Origin: Cocleimonas flava
GTDB lineage: Bacteria > Pseudomonadota > Gammaproteobacteria > Thiotrichales > Thiotrichaceae
DNA: 64,000 bases
Assembly: GCF_004339015.1 (NCBI RefSeq)
Contig: NZ_SMFQ01000004.1
Span: 310,001-374,000, forward strand
Direction: 5' to 3'
Shown: positions 29,472-34,013 of the stretch, piece after piece
How the letters are laid out: each line of letters starts with the position of its first letter
How positions within the stretch are numbered: position 1 is the stretch's first letter
Position numbers and translations under genes: made by a program
Notes under the pieces: model-generated
Database searches by the model: none
Told to the model about the DNA's origin: nothing
What the model saw: only the letters and a program-made list of their open reading frames with translations

Positions 29472-29876
29472 GACTATACTCTGTGTTATTACTCTTAATT
29501 AAAAGTTGTAGTCAGGCTGTATATGAATCACAGCAATAACTACGCTTTGTTTAATGCTTATATTTTTTAGTGGCCGTATCAAATCAGCACACCAAATTAT
29601 AGGCGAGTCGAAAAAACGCGATATTATATAGTAAAGCACTTATATGACATAGGAAAAAGAACAATCATTTTCTGTTTTTTTCTAACGGGTTTACTTCACA
29701 GAAAACTTATCCAGATAGCCAACTCAATATTAGCTTCATTAATCAGTTTATTCTTGAGCTTCGCTCCTTTAGAATTCCCCAATAAATAACCACCAAGCAT
29801 TGTCGATTTTAAACATGAACTAGATTCATATTATGATTGATTAACATCTAAATAACATCAACTCACCGGATAAAAA
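29472..29876. other. 405-bp divergent gap between fusA and pepA
   Basis: It must hold both promoters. On the minus strand two TATAAT-like boxes (29596-29601 and 29623-29628) could serve fusA, but neither has a good -35. A 34-codon open frame on the minus strand (29696-29800) has no support as a gene. pepA usually faces lptF here in relatives; lptF is absent. Confidence 0.45.
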
Positions 29877-31376
29877 ATGCAATACACAATAAATAATTCT
29901 GACTCTCCAGCAAACAATCAAGACGATTGTATTGTCCTGCCTGTCTTTAGCGCCGATGAGAGCGCTGAACTTCACCTGGCTGCGAAGAAAGTAGATAAAG
30001 CCTGCTCTGGAAAAATAAGCAAATTCATTGATACTGGAGACTTCAAGGGAACCCTTGAAGAGACTCATATATTTTATGCACTGGATGGCGTTAAAGCTGC
30101 AAGAGTAATGCTCGTGGGTTGCGGTGATAAAGATAAATTTGACACAACAAGTCTCAATAAAGCAACCAAGGCAGCAGCAAAAGCACTCAAGTCATCAACC
30201 CTATCTTCTGTAAGTCTTTATCTTGCTGATGCCTTCAAACCGAAGGAAGTACAAAACGCGGTTACTCAAATTATCATTGCCTACGCAGACAATGAATACC
30301 AATTACTTGATTATAAAAGCGAGAAGAAAGACCCAAGCAAATTAGATAAAGTTAGCATCTCATTTACCAAACCATCAGATAAACTTTCTGAAAAAGCAGA
30401 GCTTGGTATCCAGCATGGAGCATCAATTGCGAAAGGTATGAAGCTATCACGCGATCTCGCCAATCATCCGGGCAACGTTTGCACCCCTACCTATATTGCC
30501 GATGAAGCAAAAGCTGTCGCTAAGGATTATTCATCAATCAGCATTGAAATCCTCGAAGAAGCTGACATGGAAAAACTTGGTATGGGGTCATTTTTATCTG
30601 TCAGCAAAGGCAGTGACCAACCTGGAAAAATGATTGTTCTTGAATACAAAGGCGCTAAGGACAAAAAGCAGGCACCAATTGCGCTAGTTGGCAAAGGAAT
30701 AACATTTGACACAGGCGGAATTTCTTTGAAACCTGGTGCAAACATGGATGAAATGAAATTCGACATGTGTGGCGCTGCAGGAATGTTAGGCACTTTAAAA
30801 GCCTGTGCTGAGATGAAATTACCTTTAAATGTTGTTGTCGTTTTAGCTGCGGCAGAAAATATGCCGAGTGGCAGAGCATCTAAACCTGGCGATATCGTTA
30901 CGTCTATGGCTGGAAAGACGATCGAAGTATTAAACACAGATGCTGAAGGTCGATTAGTCCTATGTGATGCCCTCACCTATGTTGGTAAATATAAGCCAGA
31001 AGTTGTAATTGATGCTGCAACACTTACCGGCGCCTGTATCGTAGCGCTAGGACATCATATTTGTGCGGTTCTATCAAACGATGATGATTTAGCGGGAGAC
31101 ATCATAGACGCAGGAAACTCTATTAATGACCGCGCGTGGCAATTACCGATGGGAGAAGACTACAAAAAGCAATTAAAAAGCTCTTTCGCCGATTTAGGCA
31201 ATATTGGTGGACCACCAGCAGGAACAATTACAGCTGCATGTTTTCTAGCAGAATTTACTAAAGATTATAAGTGGGCTCATCTGGACATTGCAGGAACAGC
31301 CTGGTCAGGAAAAGACTCCACCGGAAGACCTGTTCCATTGCTATCACAATATCTTATTAACAGAGCTTTCAATTAA
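29877..31376 (+). CDS. pepA: Leucyl (cytosol) aminopeptidase
   Basis: This is an M17 metallo-aminopeptidase of 499 residues that removes N-terminal leucine and other residues from peptides; the enzyme also acts as a DNA-binding regulator in Escherichia coli. The catalytic core has the signature NTDAEGRLVLCDALTY, the metal-binding KGITFDTGGISLKPG and the GTAWSGKDSTGRP C-terminal motif. The less conserved N-terminal domain covers about 1-160. Its start codon follows CCGGATAAAAA. HolC follows 71 bp downstream on the same strand, the order found in many Gammaproteobacteria. Confidence 0.96.
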   Translation: MQYTINNSDSPANNQDDCIVLPVFSADESAELHLAAKKVDKACSGKISKFIDTGDFKGTLEETHIFYALDGVKAARVMLVGCGDKDKFDTTSLNKATKAAAKALKSSTLSSVSLYLADAFKPKEVQNAVTQIIIAYADNEYQLLDYKSEKKDPSKLDKVSISFTKPSDKLSEKAELGIQHGASIAKGMKLSRDLANHPGNVCTPTYIADEAKAVAKDYSSISIEILEEADMEKLGMGSFLSVSKGSDQPGKMIVLEYKGAKDKKQAPIALVGKGITFDTGGISLKPGANMDEMKFDMCGAAGMLGTLKACAEMKLPLNVVVVLAAAENMPSGRASKPGDIVTSMAGKTIEVLNTDAEGRLVLCDALTYVGKYKPEVVIDAATLTGACIVALGHHICAVLSNDDDLAGDIIDAGNSINDRAWQLPMGEDYKKQLKSSFADLGNIGGPPAGTITAACFLAEFTKDYKWAHLDIAGTAWSGKDSTGRPVPLLSQYLINRAFN

Positions 31377-32385: not shown

Positions 32386-33462
32386 ATGAAAAATCTTGCC
32401 ATACATCAGGCTTTACGTCTGGACAAATACCCTGAAGAAATGGCATGGCTTTGTTTTCCCGATTCCGAACTACCAGAAGGCACTACTGAGCTACTCCGCT
32501 TATGTACCTCAAAAAAACAATTAGAAGAATTTGCGAACGTACATAACCTAGAAAGTGGCGAACTTCATCATGCCCTGCTTAACTTTGTAGAAAAAGCGAT
32601 GGTAATAGATGGCAACAGTGATGAGAAAATACTGGGAACGAAATTAGTCAATTCTACATTTACCAATCGCAACCAATCAGAAGAAACATTAAAGCTGCAC
32701 TACCAACTTTTAATGAAAATTTTTCACCCCGATGTAAATTCAGACCCTAAAGCTACACACTTTTCAACGCTAGTTACCAATGCCTACACAAACTTAAAAC
32801 AAAAGCGTAGCGATCAAGAAGAATTAATCACCGTATCTGAATACCGAAAACCACCTAAAAGTTTTTATAATGCAACTCAGAAAACAGAGATGCAAATTTC
32901 CAATACAAGAAGTGCAATGGCCGTACTTTCAGCCATCACCATCTTCACTTTAGTGGCAATGATAGGACATTTTTATGATCCTGCAAACCCGGAACTTATC
33001 ACCACTAATATAGAAAACCCAATTCAAGATCCAGAATCTATCGGGCAAACTAATCCAATTAGAAAAGCAGCGATTAACACGGCAATTGAAGTTTCTGACA
33101 GCAATCTGCAGTCTATGCTTCGAAAGCTCGAAAGTGCCTATGAAGATGGTCGCGTTGATATCATCAAACCAATACTTGCCAATACACCTGAAATAAAGAA
33201 TCAAACAGATCAGCAACTCACTGATAAATTAGAAACGCTTTTTGAAATCACCAGTGAAAGAAAAATGGTGCTATTTGATTTTGACTGGAAAAATACTTCT
33301 GGTGAAGTCCAAGGCAAAGGAAAGTTTCTTTCTCGTTACCACCTAAAAGGTGAAGAGCGATGGCTAACCAGAGAAGGTATCGCTACAATTACCCTTTTAA
33401 AAGACGGAAATAAATTAAGCATTAATCAGCTAGAGCTAGAAAACAGTTCGATTGAACAGTAA
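32386..33462 (+). CDS. Membrane protein with atypical J-domain
   Basis: The 358 residues have no clear N-terminal family. A J-domain-like segment lies at about 100-140, with the essential HPD tripeptide at 114-116 in MKIFHPDVNSD. A single membrane helix at about 176-196 follows, and then a periplasmic part with a C-terminal beta domain of about 90 residues (KMVLFDFDWKNTSGEVQGKGKF). The J-domain would therefore be cytoplasmic and could recruit DnaK to the membrane. DnaJ zinc fingers are missing. The gene starts 206 bp after the small basic protein. The specific client is unknown. Confidence 0.75.
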   Translation: MKNLAIHQALRLDKYPEEMAWLCFPDSELPEGTTELLRLCTSKKQLEEFANVHNLESGELHHALLNFVEKAMVIDGNSDEKILGTKLVNSTFTNRNQSEETLKLHYQLLMKIFHPDVNSDPKATHFSTLVTNAYTNLKQKRSDQEELITVSEYRKPPKSFYNATQKTEMQISNTRSAMAVLSAITIFTLVAMIGHFYDPANPELITTNIENPIQDPESIGQTNPIRKAAINTAIEVSDSNLQSMLRKLESAYEDGRVDIIKPILANTPEIKNQTDQQLTDKLETLFEITSERKMVLFDFDWKNTSGEVQGKGKFLSRYHLKGEERWLTREGIATITLLKDGNKLSINQLELENSSIEQ

Positions 33463-33521
33463 TTAATTTTCCCACCCTCGTTTAGATATTTTATTATTAA
33501 CTTTTTCAGTTACAGCGGCAT

Positions 33522-34013
33522 ATTATCAACGTTTTATATATTTCTGACATTCAAGTCAGCTCACTTCAAAAGCTCCTTAGCAAGTATAAGCTAGAACTTA
33601 AAATCACCAGCTCTTCCGAAGAAATACCAGGCAGTTACTGGGGAGACTCTGAAGCCGGTCTAATCAACAACCAACTATTTGTTCGTAACGACACCCCTCT
33701 GCACTCAGCCCTTCATGAAGCTTGTCATTTTATTTGCATGGATCGTCAACGTCGAGAAAACCTCGATACGAATGCAGAAGGTGATTATGATGAAGAAAAT
33801 GCAGTATGCTATTTACAGATACTGTTAGCCGATGAAATACCAGAAATGGGCAGACTAAAAATGATGTCGGATATGGATGAATGGGGCTATACATTCAGAC
33901 TTGGTTCCGCTAAAAACTGGTTTGAGAAGGATGCAGAAGATGCTCTTGAATGGTTAATTGCATTCCATTTATTAGATTCTTCGAACCAACCTAATTATCA
34001 GTTACGACAATAG
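33522..34013 (+). CDS. Small HExxH protein, apparently initiated at ATT
   Basis: The frame encodes about 163 residues. An ATG at 33738 would drop the conserved first half, including the possible zinc-peptidase motif HEACH (33714-33728). The full frame reads INVLYISDIQVSSLQKLLSK at the front, then PGSYWGDSEAGLI, SALHEACHFICMD and EENAVCYLQILLADEIPEMG. The pieces look like one conserved domain, with Glu in EENAVCY as a possible third ligand. No ATG, GTG or TTG in any frame lies between the stop of the previous gene and the motif in a usable position. ATT at 33522 (infC-like) is the best candidate. No clear ribosome-binding site is seen. The family name is not known to me. Confidence 0.7.
   Translation: MINVLYISDIQVSSLQKLLSKYKLELKITSSSEEIPGSYWGDSEAGLINNQLFVRNDTPLHSALHEACHFICMDRQRRENLDTNAEGDYDEENAVCYLQILLADEIPEMGRLKMMSDMDEWGYTFRLGSAKNWFEKDAEDALEWLIAFHLLDSSNQPNYQLRQ

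Follow-up and report, generated by a model that had tools for sequence, protein, structure and literature searches.

Translation from AUU- and AUC-type codons has been described for a small group of bacterial genes. In Escherichia coli, infC and pcnB start at AUU (PMC9410913), in Streptomyces infC starts at ATC and sigR at GTC, the latter under IF3 (PMC5472188), and in Staphylococcus aureus cvfC1 starts at AUU and ccpN and infC at AUA (PMC13009471). Three such non-canonical sites in S. aureus all carry extended Shine-Dalgarno motifs, and reporters of cvfC1, ccpN and citZ gave a reduced yield from AUU or AUA starts (PMC13009471); a low near-cognate yield under IF3 has also been reported for infC and sigR (PMC5472188). 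Gene predictors look for ATG, GTG and TTG, so that genes of this kind readily escape notice (PMC5472188), and Borrelia pncA, with its AUU start, shows how their proteins come to be truncated in databases (PMC13398362). Here we describe a gene for an HExxH protein in Cocleimonas flava which we consider likely, from comparison of its sequence with those of relatives, to be real, conserved and translated from a near-cognate codon, AUC at 33525 (AUU in the nearest relative). Read in this way, its start is a new member of the small group above.

The window, that is, the whole stretch of DNA analysed, comprises 64,000 nucleotides of contig NZ_SMFQ01000004.1, and all positions given here are counted from its first letter (Table 1). 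A stop-to-stop listing of its open reading frames contains a plus-strand frame, 33501-34013, that stays open for 170 codons after an in-frame TAA, up to the stop at 34011-34013. A sequence-only reading of this DNA had remarked that the frame is open back to 33501, that it holds no ATG, GTG or TTG ahead of the active-site motif, and that PGSYWG and HEACH both lie upstream of the only ATG. Each of these remarks was borne out: the first in-frame ATG, GTG or TTG is the ATG at 33738, 3' of HEACH, and the conserved coding region is preceded by no standard start codon. The same reading had the protein begin at ATT ATC AAC; the three codons do stand at 33522, 33525 and 33528, but the ATT is the less favoured start, being ACC in the nearest relative. 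In the window, ATG, GTG and TTG are absent from all three frames between the TTG at 33452 and the TTG at 33679 (33453-33678). We had considered this gap as a sign of selection against competing starts and dropped the idea; it is given no weight because it is not conserved in the nearest relative, which has TTGs there.

Table 1. Coordinates of the HExxH gene, its motifs and its upstream context in the window
Feature	Position	Strand	Remark
HExxH protein coding sequence, 162 codons and stop	33525..34013	+	most likely start ATC 33525-33527, from alignment
In-frame TAA, upstream limit of the frame	33498..33500	+	
ATT, start proposed by the sequence-only reading; aligned codon ACC in nearest relative (L031)	33522..33524	+	
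First in-frame ATG, 3' of HEACH; unlikely start	33738..33740	+	
PGSYWG motif	33627..33644	+	
HEACH, predicted metal ligands H64 and H68, with E65	33714..33728	+	invariant in 72 aligned sequences
R76-R77, 12 and 13 residues past H64; spacing identical in EpmC	33750..33755	+	71/72 family, 16/16 EpmC, 0/13 M78
E90-E91, invariant; candidate third metal ligand	33792..33797	+	role suggested by YfcM Glu98 (PMC4231759)
ACAGCGGCATA, 11 bases directly before the proposed start, identical in nearest relative (L031)	33512..33522	+	weak predicted anti-Shine-Dalgarno pairing, in the range of random positions
Gene with weak DnaJ-like domain	32386..33462	+	Pfam DnaJ E 1.4e-05, 25.5 bits, cut-off 27.8

The nearest ortholog (L002, the same locus as L031; contig NZ_CANLZW010000016) lies in a separately assembled Cocleimonas genome, whose source record reads uncultured Cocleimonas, and its protein is 88% identical to that of the window. 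It likewise has no ATG, GTG or TTG between the upstream stop and PGSYWG. Around the proposed start the window reads CAG CGG CAT ATT ATC AAC GTT TTA and the relative CAG CGG CAT ACC ATT AAC GTT TTA. Over the 70 codons before ATG 33738 the two genes show 24.5 silent and 13.5 replacement differences (dN 0.088, dS 0.897, dN/dS about 0.10), distributed 10/3/25 over codon positions 1/2/3, and the ratio after ATG 33738 is also about 0.10 (0.030/0.289). Because of this silent excess, the third-position bias and the like ratio on the far side of 33738, we conclude that the codons preceding the first ATG are under purifying selection and behave as protein-coding sequence in the two species. HEACH, RR and EEN are retained and the frame is open in both. 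The lack of a standard start is thus conserved, together with purifying selection, in an independent genome, the comparison being one of two closely related species.

It could be argued that an ancestral start codon has disappeared from the gene in the window species and in its sister, leaving a young pseudogene that is not or barely translated. The gene lacks both a standard start and a Shine-Dalgarno sequence, TTG is the sole option in four other genomes of the genus, a sign that the start may have weakened generally, and a sample of two genomes is compatible with a gene weakened recently. We nevertheless regard such a decay as improbable: dN/dS is about 0.10 before as well as after ATG 33738, the open frame and the HEACH, RR and EEN motifs have been kept in both species, and the loss would have had to occur before the species split, or twice, yet without ensuing decay.

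How the rest of the family starts was assessed in 110 loci, which gave 102 distinct proteins (window included) after removal of eight duplicates. An in-frame ATG precedes the conserved region in 65, a GTG in 27 and a TTG only in five, while four have none and one is truncated; the count is generous, in that codons as far back as the preceding stop were all accepted. The four without a standard start are the window, its nearest ortholog, L093 and L094, of which L094 is no evidence because it is a contig artefact, its frame being cut 13 codons before the motif. L093 is another relative that lacks a standard start at the expected place; a CTG at -39 could serve. The survey also bears on initiation at ATG 33738 itself, which would yield a shorter protein of 91 residues. 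This ATG is the first standard in-frame start in the window, and the ATG aligned with it is the first in the nearest relative too, but a start there would remove PGSYWG and HEACH, conserved across the family, and with them a part of the protein that is under purifying selection. Moreover, there is no Shine-Dalgarno sequence before it (+1.5 kcal/mol), a standard codon precedes the motif in 97 of the 102 distinct proteins, and no relative was seen to start at the equivalent of 33738. An internal start is accordingly very improbable.

Within the genus, a search returned 12 genomes, five of them with an ATG available, one with a GTG, four with TTG only and two with none; outside it, TTG only or none was found in 3 of 90 proteins, one of them the artefact. 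Judging by the codons on offer, the start is weak more widely within the genus. As to whether relatives use a rare codon, as the sequence-only reading had suggested checking, the two closest of the 12 genomes appear to do so, four others have TTG only and the rest ATG or GTG.

The position of the start was narrowed down by alignment. Where a protein has a sole NTG within -45 to -31 of PGSYWG, in 28 of 42 cases this codon falls in the interval -34 to -38, five of them at -34. ATC 33525 occupies position -34 (ATT in the relative) and ATT 33522 position -35. We favour ATC 33525 as the start candidate over ATT 33522, since the latter aligns with ACC in the relative; a third candidate, ATT 33540 at position -29, is less likely, although ATT is kept there in the relative. 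Structure prediction from 33525 onwards gave a pLDDT of 93.9 overall and of 94 for residues 1-10, with a pTM of 0.90. A rare start, an assembly frameshift and a decayed start had all been put forward for this gene; we retain the first, one codon later than proposed, and disfavour the other two.

From these data we infer initiation at 33525, low expression and sensitivity to IF3. The ribosome would start at AUC 33525, where the initiator tRNA presumably inserts methionine, and the weak codon probably holds expression low and makes it sensitive to IF3; because IF3 rejects AUC-type codons, yield would be low and would rise where IF3 is limiting or inaccurate. No Shine-Dalgarno sequence is visible before ATC 33525 by duplex energy. 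The value obtained with the anti-Shine-Dalgarno, -1.7 kcal/mol, is uninformative because it falls within the range of random window positions (median -0.1, lower quartile -2.5); 4 of the 12 window genes checked also have a duplex energy near zero, and infC, computed at two loci, has -5.8 kcal/mol. Predicted RNA structure round the start is unremarkable (z -0.12 for 33505-33545 and -0.08 for 33463-33600); a z of -2.08 for 33490-33560 was not used as evidence.

Upstream lies a gene with a weak DnaJ-like domain, whose stop is separated from ATC 33525 by 62 bases and a homolog of which precedes the HExxH gene in 12/12 genus genomes. The start of the HExxH gene is possibly coupled to translation of this neighbour. 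That the constant neighbour instead feeds ribosomes into the HExxH frame by readthrough or frameshifting seems more improbable still than an internal start: the relative frame of the two genes, phased by hand, differs between the window and its nearest relative, stops intervene, and ATG, GTG and TTG are absent from all frames of the window over 33453-33678. Least probable of all is a sequencing or assembly error that erased an upstream ATG, for which nothing specific speaks and which is disfavoured because a standard start is equally missing from an independent assembly that differs at many silent sites. The DnaJ-like gene has a likely membrane segment by eye, and homologs of 22-26% identity stand upstream in four other loci.

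Near-cognate initiation from AUC 33525 was compared with the two genes that provide the classical precedents. In the genus, the start position of infC, as read from the sequence, is ATC followed by GCT or GCA in 10/10 loci read (12 fetched; L117, around G000:C3:930842-931042, is one of the ten), and no NTG occurs between this ATC and the upstream stop in the codons read at any of the ten. For pcnB, an in-frame ATG stands near the conserved start in 11/11 loci. The sequence-only reading had cited AUU starts in infC and pcnB as serving autoregulation; the precedents in E. coli are sound (PMC9410913), but autoregulation of the infC type is not implied here because the product is not IF3. Regulation of the HExxH gene by IF3 is possible. 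The gene thus resembles infC in having a near-cognate start (AUU, AUC or AUA there, ATC within the genus), whereas infC has a clear Shine-Dalgarno sequence of its own and feedback of its product on the start, and the HExxH gene has neither. With sigR of Streptomyces (GTC, repressed by IF3) it shares a non-NTG start in a gene that does not encode IF3 (PMC5472188), although dependence on IF3 was demonstrated for sigR and is only proposed here. The conserved near-cognate starts of cvfC1 (AUU) and ccpN (AUA) in S. aureus likewise belong to genes outside translation initiation (PMC13009471); these have strong extended Shine-Dalgarno motifs, which the HExxH gene does not. It would offer a clean, conserved near-cognate case in an enzyme rather than in an initiation factor, with the infC ATC as a positive control within the genus.

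To see how rare the feature is, 454 kb of the window genome and 500 kb of genome G007, about a tenth of each, were compared for orthologous frames of at least 75% protein identity, which left 112 pairs, of which three at an edge were dropped and 109 scored. The HExxH gene stood alone among them (1/109): in both genomes its first NTG comes 75 residues into the conserved alignment, and no other pair exceeded 25 residues in both; the runners-up were one frame with 22 residues and then infC with 18. A local comparison of 58 pairs agreed with this apart from a single other late case, a 72-codon frame at 29571-29786, whose short match in G007 is 63% identical and so falls under the 75% cut of the larger comparison. 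Lying upstream of the gene at 29877-31376, this frame is perhaps conserved noncoding sequence and not a gene.

The HExxH protein belongs to a compact family present in 71 of the 274 genomes sampled from the class. In an alignment of 72 of its 101 proteins, H64, E65, H68, E90, E91 and Q98 are invariant, and PGSYWG and WGYTFRLGSA are signatures of its own. Searches of Pfam, PHROGs and NCBIfam gave no useful match to the protein, and neither Pfam nor NCBIfam holds a model for the family; a sequence profile retrieved one match only from the PDB (E 0.5), and Foldseek with the predicted structure found nothing at E 0.001 or better. Among literature titles there was no description of the family or of a second EF-P hydroxylase, the family being nameless and hence hard to search.

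One described likeness is to EpmC (YfcM), which hydroxylates EF-P after EpmA has attached beta-lysine and holds its metal by His59, His63 and Glu98 (PMC4231759). The motif SxLHExxHx7RR is common to the family and EpmC with identical spacing, a conserved Glu follows later, and the proteins are of similar size. The RR pair at +12/+13 is a feature of the family and of EpmC that M78 does not have (counts in Table 1), and a Ser at -3 occurs in 72/72 family members, 16/16 EpmC and 1/13 M78 proteins. The family may be related to EpmC as a variant not described before. We tentatively propose, as a reading somewhat short of an even chance, that the gene encodes a metal enzyme of EpmC type, with a 2-His-1-carboxylate site that probably holds iron, whose substrate would be EF-P or some other component of the translation machinery. 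The likeness has clear bounds. EpmC carries GYWY/PDGR and VEVKPQ motifs that are absent by eye from the family, and an Asp at +17 in 16/16 sequences compared with 38/72 in the family. Its third ligand, a Glu in the VEVKPQ helix, is followed seven residues on by an acidic residue, whereas +7 from the invariant E90/E91 is L97/Q98, and the stretch before the candidate ligand is shorter, placing it 12-13 residues earlier than in EpmC. None of the 72 members matched PF04315 (EpmC) at E up to 1, so that membership of EpmC by Pfam fails, and no match to this model was found in G000.

Profile and structure comparisons point in more than one direction. With hhalign, the family matched EpmC at P 6.1e-06 over 32 columns (16 loci; 5.8e-05 in a first run with 13 of 15 EpmC loci), M78/IrrE at 7.8e-05 over 83 columns and YbeY at 0.24 (13 of 25 YbeY loci usable, the other 12 having been left out as not recovered by motif). 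This test is insensitive, because EpmC against YbeY, reported to be structurally alike, gave only P 0.2. In VIA-align, BepA (Z 5.7), abylysin (5.0) and E. coli YfcM (5.0) were all tied, and IrrE/PprI entries reached 3.3-3.8; the YfcM alignment, with 106 residues at an rmsd of 4.0 spanning residues 8-159, is a weak fold match tied with those to other HExxH proteins, and such middling Z values may reflect only a shared arrangement.

An alternative of about even probability, judged separately, is that EF-P hydroxylation is not the role of the product, which would instead be a small zinc metallopeptidase or a different metalloenzyme of zincin fold (M78/IrrE-, M48- or YbeY-like). The tied structural matches are consistent with this, as is the shared HExxH fold of M78/IrrE, whose alignment extends over 83 columns compared with only 32 for EpmC. 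Against it, the Ser, Leu and Arg pair that flank HExxH are common to EpmC but hardly to M78, where RR at +12/+13 is absent (0/13), and only two of the 72 members match PF06114 (M78), at best with E 0.1 and none above the cut-off. Gene neighbourhood cuts both ways. In six or more of the 71 genomes that carry the HExxH gene, from three families of the class (f57, f155 and f157; L160-L165), a lower bound because it was read from the best-scoring epmA places only, it lies directly behind epmA on the same strand, which argues against the zincin alternative; yet among the 110 loci an epmA match in the flanks (up to 1.5 or 3 kb) was found only at L089 (the same record as G191:C1), the gene having other neighbours elsewhere. 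In f57 the ATG of the HExxH gene closely follows the epmA stop, a Shine-Dalgarno-like stretch lying in the interval, and the three epmA neighbours tested against NCBIfam are EpmA above cut-off. In a midpoint-rooted tree of 78 sequences, the three epmA-adjacent groups fall into more than one clade.

Returning to the EpmC-like reading, we analyzed the distribution of the EF-P modification genes. EpmA above cut-off was found in 66 of the 71 family-bearing genomes and in 153 of the 203 others (Fisher P 0.001, uncorrected for relatedness); the EpmA-negative set consists of 51 clearly weaker genomes and the next four (G303, G192, G131 and G095), matching the 219 over the cut-off. Among the family-bearing genomes below it, G040 and G113 (62% and 81% complete) have EpmA-search scores only at the level taken for lysyl-tRNA synthetase, and three further genomes also fall short of the EpmA cut-off. 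We regard this co-occurrence as weak evidence for an EpmC-like role. EpmB above cut-off is absent from 14 of the 71 (three more are borderline), including the two f157 genomes with an epmA neighbour. The family itself is absent from 16/16 EpmC genomes sampled (hypergeometric 0.007, confounded by lineage), and two genomes that do bear it, G047 and G073, have sub-cut-off PF04315 matches (E 6.7e-4 and 2.1e-4) on contigs other than that of the family gene. The window genome has an EpmA-type match (E 5.8e-103) and an EpmB-type match (E 5.7e-131) but no EpmC.

A 2019 survey of EF-P genomes counted 358 EpmA proteins and only 143 EpmC proteins (PMC6544042), and many bacteria therefore attach beta-lysine without the known hydroxylase. 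The HExxH family is a testable candidate for the missing hydroxylase in such EpmA-only bacteria, a lead whose weight is lessened by the description, in the same survey, of EpmC hydroxylation as negligible for EF-P function (PMC6544042). That the gene is indeed the missing EF-P hydroxylase of Gammaproteobacteria without EpmC, and that its AUC/AUU start puts EF-P modification under IF3 in Cocleimonas, we consider unlikely; if true, the start would tie how strictly initiation codons are selected to how elongating ribosomes cope with polyproline stalls.

Beyond the epmA-adjacent groups, a TcdA-like gene (ThiF/MoeB-type, by eye) is found no more than 300 bases from the HExxH gene in 29 loci, many of them from Methylophaga (for example, L044, L045 and L048-L051). 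Neighbours elsewhere were taken, from their sequences, to be tcdA-like, leuS-like and rdgB-like, and the gene names pepA, holC, ispF, tcdA, leuS and rdgB are presumed readings of the sequences.
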